Source: Tubulanus polymorphus
Lineage: Eukaryota > Nemertea > Palaeonemertea > Tubulaniformes > Tubulanidae
Assembly: GCF_964204645.1 (NCBI RefSeq)
Contig: NC_134031.1
Span: 14,469,307 to 14,533,306, forward strand
Length of the DNA stretch: 64,000 nt
Reading direction: 5' to 3'
Position numbers and translations under genes: made by a program
Notes under the pieces: model-generated
The model's input: only the letters and a program-made list of their open reading frames with translations
What the model was told of the DNA's origin: nothing
Databases searched by the model: none
Shown here: one piece after another, positions 15,901 to 47,940 of the stretch
How positions within the stretch are numbered: position 1 is the stretch's first letter
Layout of the letters: the number at the start of each line of letters is the position of its first letter

Positions 15901-18900
15901 TAATTTCAACAATAATTTTTATTAGGGATTTTGATAGATAGCAAATTATTTATTTTCTATAAGCTACTCCACTGATGCTGCCAAATCCAACCAAAGTGAA
16001 AGAGATCGTAAAAGATATCGGTATTGTATAAACTTGTTTTCCTATGACTTCGAATCAATGACTTAAAATATTTAGACATCACCTATGAATTTATGTTAAT
16101 ACAGATACCATCGCAAAACCAACCGGTTCCTCAGAAACCCCGGCCGTAAAAACAACCTCTCAGCCAGGTCAGGAACAAGCCACACCGGCTACTGGGAACG
16201 GAGGCACCACAACGCCTACTGGGAACGGAGGTACCACAACGCCTACTGGGAACGGAGGTACCACAACGCCTACTGGGAACGGAGGTAACACAACGCCTAG
16301 TGGGAACGGAGGTACCACAACGCCTACTGGGAACGGAGGTACCACAAAAGTCCCTGGTCAGGCGAAACCTAGTCAGGTGAACCCAAGTCAGGTAAAACCA
16401 GGTAAGTTAAAAGTTAAATGATTCCAAGTGACAGAATTCACATTTTTTATGGAAACCATTTTTTCCAAATTACAGAAATCACGTCGCAGCTGATGTTCTT
16501 CATAGACAATTCACCAGAAACCAGTCCAGAAAAAGTGACCGAAATTATCAAAATCATCACGACTTTCATTCAAACTTATCGAATCGGACCGAAATTCGCA
16601 ACTGTTTACATTTTCTACGTCGTCGATAAAACTCCGAAAGTAATTAAAGTAACGCAGCAACAAAATATCGACTCGTATGTGAAAGAAATTAAAGCTATTC
16701 CTACAAAGAGTGACACACCAGATATTACATTCATACTGATGCGGTAAGAATATTGTCTGTAGTGAACGCGTTGCGAATGAATAGTTTGGATCCCAATTCG
16801 TGAAAACATTATTTTCATTTGACCCTTAAATCGAATCATTCAACATCTGATGTTGTAATTAGGGAATTCACAGAGGCGTCTATATCTCTTCAAACCACGT
16901 TTGTGTGGTTTTATTATCATTTTATTTTGACTTGTAGATACTTTGTGCAAACGTTCCTGTCTGAAGTGAAACTAGAACCGACGATACCAAAGATTATAAC
17001 TCTATACGGTTCCGTCGCTCCGAAATCTCCGAAAGCGCAAACCGAATTCAAAACCATCATCTTACAAATGAAAACCTTTTTCTCCGTATCGGTCGTTCCC
17101 GTCGCCAAGACGACGAATATCGATTTCCTGAAAACCGTCGTCGGGCAGACTTTCGTGGTTACCATGCCTACGACGTTCGACGTAAAACAGATAGTCGTTA
17201 AAATGACGAAGATTGTTCAGGAATTCACCGACGTTCAAAAAAGTAAAGATTTCCCAAAAATAAACAAAGGGTTTTCAATTCAATTTAAGTGTATATGTTT
17301 TTTATTTACTCAATATCATTCTGTCTTCTGCTTTTAAGAAACTCCACTGGTGCTACCAACTCCAGACAAAGTAAAAGCGATCATAAAAAACATAGGTATT
17401 TTATAAATCAGTAGATTTTCGAGGATTTATGGAGAAGTTGGCCGAGATTTGTTGGTCTATTTCTCATCACAAAACATGTCTTATAACAAAGAACGATGTT
17501 TCATTCTAGATGCTGTTGCAAAACCGATCAAACCTACAAGTTCTGAGGAAAAACCAGAGAAGGAGAAGCCAGAAAGTTCTGAGGAAAAATCTGGAAGTTC
17601 TGAGGAAAAACCAGAGAAGGCGAAGCCAGTCAAGGAAAAACCAAACAAGGAGAAGCCGGAAAGTTCTGAGGAAAAACCAGGGAAAGTGAAGCCAGAAAAG
17701 GGAAAACCTAACAAGGAGAAGCCGGAGAGTTCTGAGGAAAAACCTGGAAGTTCTGAGGAAAAACCAGGGGAAGAGAAGCCAGTCAAGGGAAAACCTAACA
17801 AGGAGAAGCCGGAAAGTTCCGAGGAAAAACCTGGAAGTTCTGAGGAAAAACCAGGGGAAGAGAAGCCAGTCAAGGGAAAACCTAACAAGGAGAAGCCAGA
17901 AAGTTCCGAGGAAAAACCTGGAAGTTCTGAGGAAAAACCAGGGGAAGAGAAGCCAGTCAAGGGAAAACCTAACAAGGAGAAGCCGGAAAGTTCTGAGGAA
18001 AAACCTGGAAGTTCTGAAGAAAAACCAGGGGAAGAGAAGCCAGTCAAGGGAAAACCTAACAAGGAGAAGCCAGAAAGTTCCGAGGAAAAACCTGGAAGTT
18101 CTGAGGAAAAACCAGAGAAGGAGAAGCCAGTCAAGGGAAAACCAAACAAGGAGAAGCCGGAAAGTTCTGAGGAAAAACCTGGAAGTTCTGAGAATAAACC
18201 AGAGAAGGAGAAGCCAGTCAAGGAAAAACCAAACAAGGAGAAGCCGGAAAGTTCTGAGGAAAAACCTGGAAGTTCTGAGGAAAAACCAGGGGAAGAGAAG
18301 CCAGTCAAGGGAAAACCTAACAAGGAGAAGCCAGAAAGTTCCGAGGAAAAACCTGGAAGTTCTGAGGATAAACCAGAGAAGGAGAAGCCAGTCAAGGAAA
18401 AACCAAACAAGGAGAAGCCGGAAAGTTCTGAGGAAAAACCTGGAAGTTCTGAGGAAAAACCAGAGGAGAAGCCAGTCAAGGGAAAACCAAACAAGGAGAA
18501 GCCGGAAAGTTCTGAGGAAAAACCTGGAAGTTCTGAGGAAAAGACAACACAAAGAAAACCTGGCCAAGTGAAGCCGGCAGGTCAACAGGGAATCAAAACA
18601 CCAGAAACTCCGGGTACATCAGCACAAACAAAACCAACCGCGCCTGAAGGTGAAACCAGTGATGTTCCGACTGAAACTGATAAAGGTAACAATAGAAGTG
18701 AAACGAATACGATCTCGTTGTATTCATCCTTGAGCTAAATCTTAAAACATAAAAACAATTCTGCGAACAAGATACACATATTGCAAAATTCGGTGCATTA
18801 TTTTCATCTGTTCACAGAGAAACGACCACACGACTTTTTCATTTTCCTCGACGGTTCAAATCGCGTCTCAAAACCGGCTTTCGAAACTTCTCGCACGTTC

Positions 18901-42211: not shown

Positions 42212-42372
42212 ACCTGGGTTCGGTTTCATACACTGGTATCAAAGTTATCCCTAGGGATAACTCCTAAGTCTGGTTAACAACCACCACAGTAACAATGAGA
42301 AACCATGGCTATGACAAATTTCAAAATGTTCCCAGGGACTATTTTGCTTGCACATCTATGAAACCCAGCCCA
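42212..42372. mobile_element. Small TIR element (CCTGGG-GGTTTCATA)
   Basis: The left end CCTGGGTTCGGTTTCATA and right end TATGAAACCCAGCCCAGG are inverted, about 160 bp apart. A terminal region similar in type (GGCCCAGTTTCAC) occurs at 60345. It directly abuts the target duplication of the Polinton-like element. Confidence 0.5.
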
Positions 42373-42677
42373 GGCATTAGTAATAGGGGTTTAGTTGTTC
42401 TAGATCAAAGGTCGAACGGTCGAGCTCGTAAAAATGAAAAACATGAAAATAATAACAATTTCTACTTGAATTAGTCGCGAAACTCATAAAAATGAACATA
42501 ATTTACATGAATTTCATATATTTTAAAAACATTTATATGTTAATTACAAAAGTGTGAGTAATAATTCATATTTTAACAGATTTCGAGTAAAAATATAAGT
42601 AAAATAAATGGACAACTAAAAGAGTATAAAAGTGTGAGTAAAGTGTGAGTGAAATAGTTTATATTTTAAACATATTT

Positions 42678-43046
42678 CAATATTTATATGTGTTAAATTC
42701 TTATTTTCAATATAAAAAGTAACGAGTAATTAACGAGTGAAATAATTCATGTTTAAATCATTGAATATTTATATTTATATGTGTTAAATTCTTATTTTCA
42801 ATATAAAAAGTAACGAGTAATTAACGAGTGAAATAATTTATATTTAAAACAGTGAATATTTATATTTATATGTGTTAAATTCTTATTTTCAGTATAAAAG
42901 TAACGAGTAATTAACGAGTGAAATAATTCATATTTAAAACAGTGAATATTTATATTTATATGTGTTAAATTCTTGATTTTTAATATAGAAAGTAACGAGT
43001 AATTAACGAGTGAAATAATTCATATTTTAAACATTGAATATTTATA
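42678..43046. repeat. ~91-bp subterminal tandem repeat, left arm
   Basis: About four copies of a unit with ATGTGTTAAATTCTTATTTT, GTAACGAGTAATTAACGAGT and TGAATATTTATATTTAT. The array lies just upstream of the arm ORF start in both arms (mirror at 46805-47175), where it may act as a promoter or a replication/packaging repeat. Confidence 0.85.
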
Positions 43047-43049
43047 TTT

Positions 43050-43670
43050 GAATGAGTTTTAATAAAAATTTTGTTATAAAAATGAGAGCCCAACTTTAAA
43101 ATCGAAATCAATGAAACCAATAAATCATTTTCACAGTTTAACATTAGAAATTATATTTCAGCGACAAATTTAGTGTCCGCCAGACATTATAAAATCGATA
43201 ACATAACTATGATTAATCAAATATTATCAAATGAAACATATTTAATTACTGAACTAGTAGATACTTTTGATAATGGCGTTAAAAATCCTAAAATGTTCAA
43301 GACAGTTTTAAATTTTAAAGGAATTTTAGATGAAAACATAATAAATATTCTTAAAACTCCTTTTAATAAAAGAGATAGTGATTTGATACTTTCAAAAGAT
43401 TATAATGATTTGATTAACTTAAGAATTGAAAAAAGACAATTATATTATTTCAATTTTGATAATAAACAAATTATCTATAATGAAAATTCATCAAATATTG
43501 GTATTCAATGTGAATTAGATAATGAAAAATCATTTAAAGATATTGTAGATAATGAAATTGTTGCGCCTAAATATAATCCTAATGAAAGCGTTTTATGTAA
43601 TTGTGGAAAATATTATACTCGAAGCAATAAATCACACCATCTTAAATCAAAATATCATAACACATATTAA
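43050..43670 (+). pseudogene. Left-arm copy of the zinc-finger ORF, N-terminally frameshifted
   Basis: Matches the intact 209-codon ORF of the right arm, but an 11-bp deletion in a GAA-rich stretch just after codon 11 breaks the frame. Only the C-terminal 165 codons (from 43173) remain open from a new start. Apart from this deletion the copies differ at very few positions. The C-terminal CNCGKYYTRSNKSHH finger is intact. Confidence 0.8.
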
Positions 43671-43763
43671 AGATAAAAACTAATAACATAACTGATGATT
43701 TAAAAACATTAAAACATCATTTTGATTTCAGTAACTATCCTAAAGATCATGAATTGTTTAGCA

Positions 43764-44105
43764 TGAAATGATAAATTGTTTGACAGTTGAAATGATAAAT
43801 TGTTTGGTAGTTGAAATGATAAATTGTTTGACAGTTGAAATGATAAATTGTTTGACAGTTGAAATGATAAATTGTTTGACAGTTGAAATGATAAATTGTT
43901 TGACAGTTGAAATGATAAATTGTTTGACAGTTGAAATGATAAATTGTTTGACAGTTGAAATGATAAATTGTTTGACAGTTGAAATGATAAATTGTTTGAC
44001 AGTTGAAATGATAAATTGTTTGACAGTTGAAATGATAAATTGTTTGACAGTTGAAATGATAAATTGTTAGACAGTTGAAATGATAAATTGTTAGACAGTT
44101 GAAAT
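43764..44105 (+). repeat. 24-bp minisatellite, left arm
   Basis: About 14 copies of ATGATAAATTGTTTGACAGT plus TGAA. The unit length is a multiple of three, so it stays open as repeated MINCLTVE; this is not evidence of translation. The mirror array is at 45787-46077. Confidence 0.95.
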
Positions 44106-44108
44106 GAG

Positions 44109-44601
44109 TTAGTTAATCAAAAATAGGGGTTTAAGTATTAATTGACTTGGATTCTTGTTAACCAATAGCGTGAATAGAAATCAAAAAGATTTAAATAAAA
44201 AAAACATAAGTTAAATAAGTTAGTATTAGATAAAGTAACTTATTGTTTTTTTATTTAAATCTTTTTGATTTCTATTCACGCTATTGGTTAACAAGAATTG
44301 ACTAGAATTCAAATAGATTTAACAAGAAATTCAATAACTTTAACTGTTAGTATCACTCTTGTATTATTTCATTGTTTCTCTTATTGAATAAGCCAACCAA
44401 CTAATATCACTCTTGTATTATCCTAGTCAAATGTAAAGAATTTACAATATCATATTTGAATGAATTAAAACATAAATTACTTCTGTGACTTCATTTTCAG
44501 AAATAAAGCATAATATGTATTTAATACATTAATACGTACTTAAGTACGTAGTTAAGTATGTACTAAATACCTTAATACTTAAACCCCTTTTTTTGATTAA
44601 C
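44109..44601. repeat. Nested inverted repeat at the element centre
   Basis: AGTTAATCAAAAATAGGGGT (44109-) pairs with ACCCC-containing sequence ending GATTAACT at 44601, about 30 bp per arm. Its AATAGGGGTTTA word matches the outer element terminus. Within it, 44151-44213 and 44236-44298 form a ~60-bp nearly perfect hairpin (ATTCTTGTTAACCAATAGCG arm). Confidence 0.85.
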
Positions 44602-44876
44602 TAATATTTCATACAATATTTCATACATTTCAGCTAATTTAACAGTCTTATTCTTAATTTGTAATTTAGTTTATGAGTATACAATCTACACAATTTAATA
44701 CTTAAACAGTTAAACAATCTAGCGGATTCATTGTAATCCTCTTTTATTAATGATAAATGTAAATATATAATTGAATATGATTTATACTTTTCCAAATATT
44801 TATAATGTAATCTATTTTTTATTTTTATTAAGTGAAAACATATAATTTATTCATTTTTATAAAACTAAGTAAGACA

Positions 44877-44941
44877 GGTACGAGTAAGAATCCAAGAAAT
44901 CTTACTTTCTTGGCAAGAATCTTGGATTCTTACTTGTACGT
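44877..44941. repeat. 21-bp arm hairpin in element centre
   Basis: GTACGAGTAAGAATCCAAGA pairs with TCTTGGATTCTTACTTGTAC across about 20 nt. It lies upstream of the 3' ends of the two minus-strand ORFs and could act as a bidirectional terminator or replication structure. Confidence 0.8.
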
Positions 44942-45075
44942 CTAGTGCATAGATATATAAATTAGTTTTTATAAAAATTAAAAACATAAATTATTAATCT
45001 AAGTATAGAAATAGTTAAATTAGTTAGAAAATATAATCTATTTTTATATTTTCAACCAATTTAACAGTCTTATTC

Positions 45076-45381
45076 TCAATTTGAATTATGTAATTTTTCA
45101 TCAAGTTCATGAATATATTTATGATTTCTCAAACTCTTTTTATTTTTATATCTTTTATTACATATTTCACAGCATTTAATATTATTCAATCTATCTGAAA
45201 TATAATTTATGTTATCTTTCAATTCTGTATATCTTATTTTACAAGAATCATAAAATTCTAACAACTGTTTTATAGTATAAACTGAGAATGAAAATAAACC
45301 TGAAATCATAATAATTGATTTAGTATTTTGTTGATTTTTGTATATTAGATGTAATATTTCTAATACCTTATTTTCACTCAT
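45076..45381 (-). CDS. Small C2H2 zinc-finger protein of the Polinton-like element, 101 aa
   Basis: An AT-rich intronless ORF. A central hydrophobic segment (SIIMISGLFSFSVYTIKQLL, about residues 22-41) may be a membrane helix. The C terminus holds one classical C2H2 finger: CCEICNKRYKNKKSLRNHKY followed by IH (C-x2-C-x12-H-x4-H). A single finger next to a membrane segment is unusual. It is unique to the centre, not in the inverted arms. No homolog recognised; short AT-rich proteins with one finger are common in large DNA viruses and virus-like elements. Confidence 0.65.
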   Translation of the reverse strand: MSENKVLEILHLIYKNQQNTKSIIMISGLFSFSVYTIKQLLEFYDSCKIRYTELKDNINYISDRLNNIKCCEICNKRYKNKKSLRNHKYIHELDEKLHNSN

Positions 45382-45428
45382 TTTTATAGTTAAAATATAT
45401 AGAATAAATTAAATTAAAAGATGCTGTT

Positions 45429-45647
45429 TTAATCCTCTAATTCTTTTAAATCATTAACTTTTTTATTGTTATTTTTTCTGTGATTGTTTCCATTTAACTT
45501 CTTTAATTTCTTGCTCAATTTTATATTTTCATTAATCAAATCCTTACTGATATTTTCATAATAAAAGAAAAGTGCAGCCAATATTAATCCTCCTGCTACT
45601 GAATAATGTTTCAAATCACTTTTCCCAGTTGAGATGAAACCATTCAT
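45429..45647 (-). CDS. Small predicted membrane protein of the Polinton-like element, 72 aa
   Basis: An intronless ORF with one transmembrane segment (YSVAGGLILAALFFYYE, about residues 15-31) preceded by a short N terminus and followed by a charged Lys/Asn-rich coiled-coil-like tail. It lies 47 bp upstream of the zinc-finger ORF on the same strand, so the two could be co-transcribed. This size and plan fit small virion membrane proteins, but homology cannot be shown here. Confidence 0.55.
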   Translation of the reverse strand: MNGFISTGKSDLKHYSVAGGLILAALFFYYENISKDLINENIKLSKKLKKLNGNNHRKNNNKKVNDLKELED

Positions 45648-45786
45648 TTATTTAAGAGAAAAATTAAACAGTTTATAAAATATTTGCTAGTTTTTAATTA
45701 AATATTTTATAATCATTTTTAAAATATTAAACTTTTAAATGATTAAATCAAATAACAATCAAATTTACAGCCAAACAATTTAACAT

Positions 45787-46077
45787 TTCAACAGTCTAAC
45801 AATTTAACATTTCAATAGTCAAACAATTTAACATTTTAACAGTCGAATAATTTAACATTTTAACAGTCAAACAATTTATCATTTCAACTGTCAAACAATT
45901 TATCATTTCAACTGCCAAACAATTTATCATTTCAACTGTCAAACAATTTATCATTTCAACTGTCAAACAATTTATCATTTCAACTGCCAAACAATTTATC
46001 ATTTCAACTGTCAAACAATTTATCATTTCAACTACCAAACAATTTATCATTTCAACTGTCAAACAATTTATCATTTC
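45787..46077 (-). repeat. 24-bp minisatellite, right arm
   Basis: About 12 copies inverted relative to the left array, with more variants (GCAGTTG, TAGTTG, degenerate TAACATTTCAACAGTC units at the inner end). Confidence 0.95.
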
Positions 46078-46171
46078 ATGCTAAACAATTCATGATCTTT
46101 AGGATAGTTACTGAAATCAAAATGATGTTTTAATGTTTTTAAATCATCAGTTATGTTATTAGTTTTTATCT

Positions 46172-46801
46172 TTAATATGTGTTATGATATTTTGATTTAA
46201 GATGGTGTGATTTATTGCTTCGAGTATAATATTTTCCACAATTACATAAAACGCTTTCATTAGGATTATATTTAGGCGCAACAATTTCATTATCTACAAT
46301 ATCTTTAAATGATTTTTCATTATCTAATTCACATTGAATACCAATATTTGATGAATTTTCATTATAGATAATTTGTTTATTATCAAAATTGAAATAATAT
46401 AATTGTCTTTTTTCAATTCTTAAGTTAATCAAATCATTATAATCTTTTGAAAGTATCAAATCACTATCTCTTTTATTAAAAGGAGTTTTAAGAATATTTA
46501 TTATGTTTTCATCTAAAATTCCTTTAAAATTTAAAACTGTATTGAACATTTTAGGATTTTTAACGCCATTATCAAAAGTATCTACTAGTTCAGTAATTAA
46601 ATATGTTTCATTTGATAATATTTGATTAATCATAGTTATGTTATCGATTTTATAATGTCTGGCGGACACTAAATTTGTCGCTGAAATATAATTTCTAATG
46701 TTAAACTGTGAAAATGATTTATTGGTTTCATTGATTTCGATTTTAAAGTTGGGCTCTTCTTCTTTCTTCATTTTTATAACAAAATTTTTATCAAAACTCA
46801 T
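46172..46801 (-). CDS. TIR-encoded zinc-finger protein, 209 aa
   Basis: Intact copy of the arm ORF. The N terminus is Lys/Glu-rich, followed by FNIRNYISATNLVSARHYK, a mixed helical middle with ILDENIINILKTPFNKRDSD, and a C-terminal finger CNCGKYYTRSNKSHHLKSKYH (C-x-C-x12/13-H-x5-H, positions about 188-207). Such CxCG fingers are frequent in virus-like and giant-virus proteins. Encoding it inside both terminal repeats gives the element two copies facing inward, as seen for TIR genes of linear DNA viruses. A DNA-binding or terminus-binding role is a hypothesis. Confidence 0.7.
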   Translation of the reverse strand: MSFDKNFVIKMKKEEEPNFKIEINETNKSFSQFNIRNYISATNLVSARHYKIDNITMINQILSNETYLITELVDTFDNGVKNPKMFNTVLNFKGILDENIINILKTPFNKRDSDLILSKDYNDLINLRIEKRQLYYFNFDNKQIIYNENSSNIGIQCELDNEKSFKDIVDNEIVAPKYNPNESVLCNCGKYYTRSNKSHHLKSKYHNTY

Positions 46802-46804
46802 TCA

Positions 46805-47175
46805 AATATAAATATTCAATGTTTTAAATATGAATTATTTCACTCGTTAATTACTCGTTACTTTCTATATTAAAAATCAAGAATTTAACACATATAAATA
46901 TAAATATTCACTGTTTTAAATATGAATTATTTCACTCGTTAATTACTCGTTACTTTTATACTGAAAATAAGAATTTAACACATATAAATATAAATATTCA
47001 CTGTTTTAAATATAAATTATTTCACTCGTTAATTACTCGTTACTTTTTATATTAAAAATAAGAATTTAACACATATAAATATAAATATTCAATGATTTAA
47101 ACGTGAATTATTTCACTCGTTAATTACTCGTTACTTTTTATATTGAAAATAAGAATTTAACACATATAAATATTG
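46805..47175. repeat. ~91-bp subterminal tandem repeat, right arm
   Basis: Mirror of 42678-43046, immediately upstream of the 209-codon ORF start. Confidence 0.85.
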
Positions 47176-47647
47176 AAATATGTTTAAAATATAAACTATT
47201 TCACTCACACTTTACTCACACTTTTATACTCTTTTAGTTGTCCATTTATTTTACTTATATTTTTACTCGAAATCTGTTAAAATATGAATTATTACTCACA
47301 CTTTACTCACACTTTTGTAATTAACATATAATTGATTTTAAAATATATGAAATTCATGTAAATTATGTTCATTTTTATGAGCTTCGCGACTAATTCAAGT
47401 AGAAATTGTTATTATTTTCATGTTTTTCATTTTTACGAGCTCGGCCGTTAGACCTTTGATCTAGAACAACTAAACCCCTATTACTGGCATTACCAACTAT
47501 TTCGGTCATAATAGTGTAATATCTGACCGCTGCACGGACTGCCATTGATCTGTTTTCAATTGTTGCGGACCTAGTAGCGTAGCAACAATGGTCCGTTATT
47601 TTTCAAAATGGAGTGATTGTTTTTTTAGAAAGAATGTGACTTAAAAA

Positions 47648-47940
47648 TACGGAAGCCCCTAGGTGACATATGAGATAATTTTTTTCATAATTTCGACTTA
47701 TTAAGTCGAATTTCGACATAATAAGTCGAATTTCGTGTTAATTAAGTCGAATTTCGACTTAATAAGTCGAAATTCGACATGAAAATAAAACTCGAAATTC
47801 GACTTAATTAACTCGAAATTCGACTTATTATGTCGAAATTCGACTTATTATGTCGAAATTCGACTTATTATGTCGAAATTCGACTTAATAAGTCGAAATT
47901 GTGAAAAAGTCTTCTCGTATGTCACCTAGGGGCTTCCGTA
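47648..47940. mobile_element. 293-bp MITE with palindromic TTCGAC satellite
   Basis: Terminal repeats TACGGAAGCCCCTAGGTGAC and GTCACCTAGGGGCTTCCGTA flank arrays of TTTCGACTTATTAAGTCGAA that change orientation in the middle. The direct repeats TAAAAA (47642-47647, 47941-47946) may be target duplications. A truncated copy lies at 37433. Confidence 0.85.

Follow-up and report, generated by a model that had tools for sequence, protein, structure and literature searches.

A short gene-bearing element in Tubulanus polymorphus as a probable satellite of resident Polinton/Maverick elements

The 64,000-nucleotide stretch of Tubulanus polymorphus DNA analysed here (the window) raises the question of what kind of element can combine Polinton-like ends with long, gene-bearing inverted repeats in little more than 5 kb. 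The element is 5,107 bp in full (42379–47485 in window coordinates, by self-comparison), starts with AGTAATAGGGG and finishes with CCCCTATTACT, with inverted repeats that start AG, and lies between two exact copies of GGCATT. These ends, the 6-bp duplication, the two near-identical arms of ~1.7 kb which together make up about two thirds of the element, and open reading frames for small proteins (209, 101 and 72 aa) had all been claimed in a preliminary description of the locus, and all were recovered here (Table 1).

When compared by blastn, the arms are 97.2% identical over 1,712 aligned columns with 26 mismatches and 2 gaps, and the 24-bp tandem repeats along their inner edges account for a large share of the differences. 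This high identity fits the recent mobility which had been suggested for the element. Each arm carries a copy of the gene we refer to as TIRp, and the two small membrane proteins MSEN and MNG are encoded centrally; an 11-base gap in the left arm relative to the right places the first codons of the left-arm TIRp out of frame. MSEN has a single hydrophobic stretch (residues 23–41) and a C-terminal C2H2-like finger which scores under the Pfam cut-off. The central region at 44151–44543, which contains a hairpin, has main matches in other copies which are 89–98% identical (genome search, local blast). The G+C content is 21–25% in 2-kb steps across the element, compared with 32–46% in the rest of the window. 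The left flank of the element is partly inside a dispersed ~160-bp repeat.

Table 1. Positions of the features of the short element in window coordinates.
Feature	Position	Strand	Basis
Left target site duplication copy, GGCATT	42373..42378	.	sequence
Left arm (terminal inverted repeat), 1,690 bp	42379..44068	+	blastn of element against itself, repeat search
Terminal ~125 bp common to the element and 17–18 kb elements	42379..42503	+	sequence search
91-bp tandem repeats, left arm, four copies	42680..43070	+	repeat search; mirror ~46777–47173
TIRp gene, left-arm copy, residues 16–209 open, 99.5% identical	43086..43670	+	tblastn
Helper polB remnant, left arm, residues 1169–1202, 79% identical, directly after TIRp	43661..43762	+	tblastn
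24-bp tandem repeat array, left-arm inner edge	43764..44106	+	repeat search; mirror ~45767–46078
Central hairpin, ~50-bp stem	44151..44298	.	fold -59.1 kcal/mol, z -18
Second short inverted repeat, centre	44878..44939	.	read directly in sequence
MSEN gene, 101 aa	45076..45381	-	ORF, selection
MNG gene, 72 aa; single hydrophobic stretch, residues 16–34	45429..45647	-	ORF, selection
Right arm (terminal inverted repeat), 1,712 bp	45774..47485	-	blastn of element against itself, repeat search
Same helper polB remnant, right arm	46080..46181	-	tblastn
TIRp gene, copy in right arm, open over 209 aa; zinc-finger-like CxCG...H...H motif at C-terminus	46172..46801	-	ORF, genome search, selection
Right target site duplication copy, GGCATT	47486..47491	.	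sequence

A genome-wide search with the end sequence returned 49 matches (the best 40 of 1,205 candidates were scored), and the family copies studied here are a best-scoring subset. Exact 6-bp duplications were found in 23 of the 24 elements for which both ends were read, with five of the six bases matching in the remaining one, and no other duplication length was seen amongst them (L006, L008/L009, L029–L034, L039, L040, L043 and L044, which had one end or no matching partner, were not scored). The window element is not a chance arrangement, as its ends are found elsewhere in the genome flanked by different exact 6-bp duplications.

The search also recovered the longer relatives with the same ends which the preliminary description had envisaged, in the form of 17–18 kb elements with an integrase, an ATPase and a PolB-like ORF. 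The five read (17.3–18.4 kb by end coordinates) share the terminal ~120 bp with the window element: the match begins at base 1 with 88–94% identity in L045–L048 and L051–L054, and at base 28 with 96% identity in L049/L050. There is a second, diverged lineage bearing PolB, to which bases 43 to ~184 of the window element are 91–96% identical. All five long elements have exact 6-bp duplications (TATCTT, GACATT, TACGAC, GCTAGT and TATATA), and they are probably the helpers of the short element, as we call them below. In the one helper scanned with Pfam (L045), an rve integrase (PF00665, 2e-9) and a Pox_A32-type ATPase (PF04665, 1.8e-11) were identified, the integrase ORF also having a chromodomain match just under the curated cut-off (PF00385, 7e-5); ORFs with the same starts were found by eye in the other four, with the L052 ATPase ORF listed with a later start. 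A 1,341-aa ORF contains KLMNNAFYGKT and YLDTDS, which we take to be PolB motifs, and is therefore regarded as PolB-like; it is whole in three helpers (L046, L048 and L051) and interrupted in L049 and L053, has a pooled in-frame pN/pS of 0.14 (3 sequences), and gave no PolB profile hit in Pfam, NCBIfam or PDB sequence searches. No capsid or protease was recognised amongst the scanned conserved helper ORFs using Pfam, PHROGs and PDB sequence profiles, and IMG/VR scans with a 253-aa helper protein and a piece of PolB gave no relative. The left end of every helper forms a terminal palindrome of 268–353 bp which is absent from the end of the window element (fold z -1.5), and end recognition may thus differ from that of the helpers.

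The association between short and long elements is also seen in their sequences and locations. End subtypes are common to the helper L051/L052 and the satellite L041/L042, and both groups cluster in the middle of chromosomes, where 85 of 94 helper PolB matches (on nine contigs, from the best 131) and 49 of 56 TIRp matches (on four contigs, from the best 150) are located, compared with 6 of 31 matches to an unrelated repeat (on the same nine contigs as PolB, 31 of the 41 listed; all three being best-scored lists). PolB, integrase and ATPase genes are missing from the window element, whose coding content is limited to the three small genes and 34 residues left over from PolB. The label of Polinton-like given to it earlier holds for the 6-bp duplication and the AG-starting inverted repeats, but the element is not itself a Polinton. 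Judged from its sequence, it is non-autonomous, having cis-acting ends in common with an autonomous element and none of its enzymes, and the existence of longer, same-ended relatives with Polinton genes supports the earlier suggestion that a virus-like element may have it as a non-autonomous satellite, which had been offered beside that of a new family.

The genes carried by the short elements appear to be maintained. Amongst the best 150 of 664 TIRp candidates scored, ~105 were stop-free by a hand count, and the best 150 of 376 candidates were scored for MSEN. Pooled in-frame pN/pS ratios were 0.29 for MSEN (8 sequences), 0.23 for MNG (6 sequences) and 0.56 for TIRp (16 sequences), the last falling to 0.38 in six sequences of the window element's subclade, compared with 0.87–2.26 in the two wrong frames (the tests excluded copies that contained stops or spanned <90% of the protein, as well as duplicate arms, copies identical to another and any locus already represented more fully). 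These ratios indicate that all three genes are under purifying selection, with only moderate constraint on TIRp across the whole set. None has a counterpart in the pieces of the five helpers by tblastn, and the best hhalign probability against 19 conserved helper ORFs was 5%. The satellite proteins had no more than weak hits in PHROGs and NCBIfam, no TIRp relative was found in an IMG/VR scan, and a single-sequence AlphaFold model of TIRp had a mean pLDDT of 33 with no assignable fold. The window element has no candidate capsid ORF, and none of its three proteins matches a family of capsids.

We note that the polB remnant following TIRp is present in five of the six elements of the window's subclade (it is absent from L040), starting at residue 1169, or at 1175 in L039, and that in L043 it extends to residue 1341 and then into other helper genes, making this a chimeric relative. 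By tblastn, the remnant was not found in the other satellites read (L021–L028 and L055–L062). Arm length across the family ranges from ~0.14 kb up to complete palindromes, with three of 13 elements (L022, L026 and L058) being palindromic over their whole length. The TIRp DNA in the two arms of one element is 98.6–100% identical, and in all six pairs this is closer than the nearest other element (95.4–99.2%) amongst the 25 copies compared. It is as if one end had been copied onto the other, though this likeness could alternatively stem from chromosomal gene conversion. Copying from arm to arm was also considered for the two ~6.1-kb RT elements of L055/L056, which are 99.6% identical, and was rejected: one is inserted within TIRp near codon 38 and the other just after TIRp in the opposite arm, and these differing points indicate separate insertions which are not evidence of arm copying.

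The window element is, in our judgement, probably one copy of a small gene-bearing satellite family which depends on the resident Polinton/Maverick elements. An ordinary internally deleted, MITE-like Polinton with the genes as passengers would also keep helper ends and a polB remnant, and the chimera L043/L063 resembles an intermediate in such a process; however, the remnant was seen in only part of the satellites read, and purifying selection acts on three genes for which no counterpart was found in the five helpers. The element is thus not a mere deletion relic, its genes do not look like leftovers of the helpers read, and we regard this explanation as improbable. Somewhat less unlikely is an origin of the satellites from another Polinton lineage in the genome which itself carries TIRp, MSEN and MNG. 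The five long elements read represent one lineage, the second being seen from its ends only (L010, L011, L017 and L018), the TIRp of L034 is just 41% identical, and the chimera does combine TIRp with helper genes. Against this, none of the long elements seen combines TIRp with a full PolB, and in a non-exhaustive inspection by eye of the best 131 PolB and 150 TIRp matches, the two lay at most 20 kb apart in only about two cases.

Two further explanations carry very little weight. Inverted repeats are common amongst DNA transposons, and the inner part of the window arm is mostly unlike the helpers, as might be expected of an unrelated DNA transposon whose own transposase is encoded elsewhere and whose 6-bp duplications are a coincidence, but this is contradicted by the termini shared with the long elements (88–96% over ~120 bp), by the end subtypes common to helper and satellite, and by the helper polB within the arm, and we give it hardly any credence. 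Nearly as improbable is an artefactual origin of the long and complete palindromes, through misassembly or fold-back reads: long-read data are known to contain fold-back chimeras, and two of the long-armed cases are on small contigs (L059 on C61 and L060 on C19), yet other palindromes are found inside chromosomes with exact flanking duplications, and arms differ by substitutions (97.2% identity in the window element, 94.6% in L022 and 89.1% in L026).

For the satellite, we suggest that the helper integrase would insert it in trans via the common AGTAATAGGGG end, that the helper polymerase would replicate it from the common ends, and that it may be packaged by the helper. The long gene-bearing arms could arise during strand-displacement replication if one end were copied onto the other, either by the displaced strand folding back or by the template switching between ends; each arm would in this way gain an inward-reading TIRp, and ends that no longer matched following an internal deletion would be made alike again. 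Adenovirus defective genomes provide a precedent in which one end is duplicated onto the other of a protein-primed linear molecule, giving symmetric ends by copying, but these are laboratory products and not a self-maintaining family of elements (we found no description of them in the open-licence literature, mostly from titles and the starts of abstracts). The zinc-finger-like TIRp might conceivably have the DNA ends of the satellite or of the helper as its target, and one guess for the two membrane proteins would be a role in particle association or exclusion. More tentatively still, and with somewhat less than even confidence, we propose a self-maintaining satellite which uses the integrase, polymerase and possibly capsid of the helper, adapts to or competes with the helper through conserved genes of its own for DNA-binding and membrane proteins, and exists as an end-copied inverted molecule ranging from short repeats to complete palindromes, as a chromosomal counterpart of the transpovirons.

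A satellite which depends on Polintons and has selected genes of its own would imply a long-running relationship between helper and parasite, and bears on the open question of Polintons as viruses in animals. It would offer a handle for testing Polinton replication and packaging, and the graded series of arms, together with the captured helper polB, offers evidence on the formation and renewal of long terminal repeats. Were the satellite genes to hold the helper back, they would act as a natural check on the spread of Polintons, as virophages can on giant viruses.

No gene-bearing Polinton satellite was found described in the titles and abstract starts of the open-licence literature. Polintons, as described in PMC8097293 and PMC4028283, have the same 6-bp duplications, terminal inverted repeats and AG-starting ends, and the window element has terminal sequence in common with the resident ones and a remnant of polB; it differs in being 5.1 kb rather than ~17 kb (15–20 kb), in lacking polymerase, integrase and ATPase, in having arms of two thirds of its length with a gene inside, and in its three own genes. 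Polintons are reported to encode capsid-morphogenesis homologues, with particles not observed (PMC8097293). The account of endogenous mavirus-like elements in Cafeteria includes three truncated copies among 33, as well as Ngaro retrotransposons of ~6 kb which have entered these elements, in some cases within TIRs (PMC8547959); the family here differs in having at least 150 scored TIRp matches, conserved genes of its own and complete palindromes. The transpovirons (PMC7031253, PMC8877843) are described as small linear elements of ~7 kb with few genes whose replication depends on another virus, and for which DNA-binding and membrane proteins have been suggested to be important for carriage (PMC7031253). 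The window element is likewise small, has few genes and would rely on the replication of another, but whereas transpovirons have giant viruses and virophages of amoebae as helpers, the probable helper here is a chromosomal Polinton with shared ends.

The window element was confirmed as a discrete unit with ends AGTAATAGGGG and CCCCTATTACT, exact flanking GGCATT duplications and long near-identical arms (1,690 and 1,712 bp; 97.2% identity), much as the preliminary description had it, and its A+T content is higher than that of its surroundings. From the end inward, each arm contains the end sequence, four copies of a 91-bp repeat, an inward-oriented gene for a 209-aa protein (TIRp), a short polymerase-gene remnant and an array of 24-bp repeats. 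The right-arm TIRp gene is open and the left-arm copy has an 11-base gap close to its start; the protein has a CxCG...H...H motif at its C-terminal end. The centre contains a strong hairpin (stem of about 50 bp; z -18 on folding), the main genomic matches of which are 89–98% identical, together with the short genes MSEN (101 aa) and MNG (72 aa), whose products each have a single hydrophobic stretch, with MSEN also having a C2H2-like finger scoring below the Pfam cut-off. Neighbouring features and those of related genomic pieces (L numbers) are listed in the table.

Coordinates of the window element and of other features in the window and in related genomic pieces
Sequence	Position	Feature	Remarks
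Window	42379–47485	Window element	5,107 bp
Window	42213–42374	Dispersed repeat of ~160 bp	Stops at the target site duplication or a few bases short of it; scored copies at 86–93%
Window	47682–47904	Tandem repeats of ~20 bp on a palindrome like TTCGACTTATTAAGTCGAA	Immediately outside the window element
Window	17407–18738	Long EEKPxxEKP-type repeat ORF	Open on both strands
L008	1489–1501	Satellite end	Flank AGTAATGGCACG in common with L009, on a different chromosome; its beginning resembles that of an element end, as would fit the movement of a larger unit
L009	1683–1695	Satellite end	
L034	9–533	TIRp relative at just 41% identity, containing a stop	MNG relative nearby (L014, same place)
L055	631–6744	~6.1-kb element with reverse transcriptase (RT) and RNase H	99.6% identical to that of L056; in both, ORFs overlap strongly; one in each arm of a single satellite, at different points
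L056	1271–7378	~6.1-kb element with RT and RNase H	

A search for longer relatives sharing these ends had been proposed earlier, and five elements of 17.3–18.4 kb were found which have the terminal ~120 bp in common with the window element (from base 28 only in L049/L050). A profile scan of one of these helpers identified ORFs including a Pox_A32-type ATPase and an rve integrase with a chromodomain; ORFs that begin in the same way are present in the remaining four. A further helper protein, at most 1,344 aa long, intact in three helpers and interrupted in two, is presumably a family-B polymerase (PolB) by its motifs; it had no match to any PolB profile or solved structure searched. More conserved ORFs occupy the positions expected for capsid genes, and none of those scanned was recognised by Pfam, PHROGs or PDB sequence profiles. 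As the 131 scored matches to a 301-residue PolB piece (of 2,091 candidates) are 93–100% identical, helpers are numerous, with little divergence among those that scored best. In a second lineage (L010, L011), PolB is 40–58% identical in its N-terminal part.

Across the genome (268 Mb, 77 contigs), which by its gene content resembles that of an invertebrate animal, there were 49 matches to the terminal 182 bp of the window element (the best 40 of 1,205 candidates being scored). We read 24 two-ended elements, 17 of them short (including the window element and one on contig C10 whose ends are L041 and L042), five long and two belonging to a lineage of greater divergence; the 6-bp duplications are exact in all except L028, where five of six bases agree. 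TIRp and MSEN each had 150 scored matches (of 664 and 376 candidates, respectively), and about 105 of those to TIRp are stop-free by hand count. The best-scored TIRp copies (49/56; four contigs) and helper PolB copies (85/94; contigs C1–C6 and C8–C10) lie mostly in the middle half of chromosomes, unlike the repeat to the left of the window element (6/31 scored copies). The L034 TIRp relative would represent an older satellite branch.

The Polinton affiliation suggested earlier is supported by the ends and insertion signature held in common, but not by gene content or size, and the most fitting description of the window element is that of a gene-bearing Polinton satellite, which very probably works through Polinton enzymes. 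TIRp, MSEN and MNG were not detected in the helper pieces by tblastn, and profile comparison of the satellite proteins with 19 conserved helper ORFs gave a best probability of 5%; the main uncertainty is that another Polinton lineage, beyond those read, might carry the three genes itself. All three are under purifying selection, with differences most frequent at third codon positions and pooled in-frame pN/pS values of 0.56 for TIRp (n = 16; 0.38 in the window element's subclade, n = 6), the least constrained, 0.29 for MSEN (n = 8) and 0.23 for MNG (n = 6), compared with 0.87–2.26 in the wrong frames; the helper PolB value is 0.14 (n = 3). Because these genes were not found in helper pieces and are under such selection, we infer that the satellite is not a deletion relic.

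In five of the six elements of the window element's subclade, a fragment of helper polB comes after TIRp (residues 1169–1202 in the window element and L044, 1175–1202 in L039, 1169–1236 in L041/L042 and 1169–1341 in L043); L040 had no such remnant in the stretch examined. The L043 piece is continuous with the adjoining helper genes, the first of them at 98%, and helper ORFs go on through the next 8 kb (L063), where 6/10 matches are at least 94% identical and the lowest 30%. Since the TIRp–polB join carries on in this way, L043/L063 is a chimera of satellite arm and helper as far as read (the right end lying outside), and the window element's subclade looks to have descended from a satellite–helper chimera by deletion. 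The remaining satellites read have no polB piece by tblastn (L023 has one in its flank only), and therefore the satellite genes need not derive from this helper.

All five helpers have a terminal palindrome of 268–353 bp at the left end (L045, L047, L049, L051 and L053), and the one folded forms a long hairpin (z -18). To our knowledge, such palindromes have not been reported for Polintons, and an open-licence literature search also produced none. Sequence comparison and folding found no palindrome of the helper type at the window element's end; palindromic ends near TIRp occur elsewhere (L025, L029 and L033). Bases 43–184 of this end match the second lineage (L010, L011) at 91–94%, and so it may be mosaic, combining sequence from two helper lineages.

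Arm length by self-comparison ranges from ~0.14 kb (L028) through 0.3 kb (L024, L027) and 1.7 kb (the window element, L057, L060) to 2 kb (L059), and 3/13 elements are palindromes over their whole length (L022, 3.1 kb; L026, 1.3 kb; L058, 6.1 kb at 98.4%). TIRp copies in the two arms of one element are 98.6–100% identical (6/6 elements with two comparable copies), against 95.4–99.2% with the nearest other element (25 copies compared), the arm pairs being closer in all six cases. Such a pattern would be expected if one end were copied onto the other, while the linear molecule replicates or through later conversion; the data are compatible with both, and we favour replication because the whole-length palindromes sit between exact target duplications.

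Searches of open-licence literature listed no description of a gene-bearing Polinton satellite, and within that scope its novelty is provisional. According to a study covering truncated virophage-like elements of Cafeteria (PMC8547959), their TIRs must have been regenerated, which provides a precedent for the end copying proposed here, and the RT elements inside the satellite arms of L055/L056 resemble the Ngaro insertions in virophage-like elements noted in the same study.
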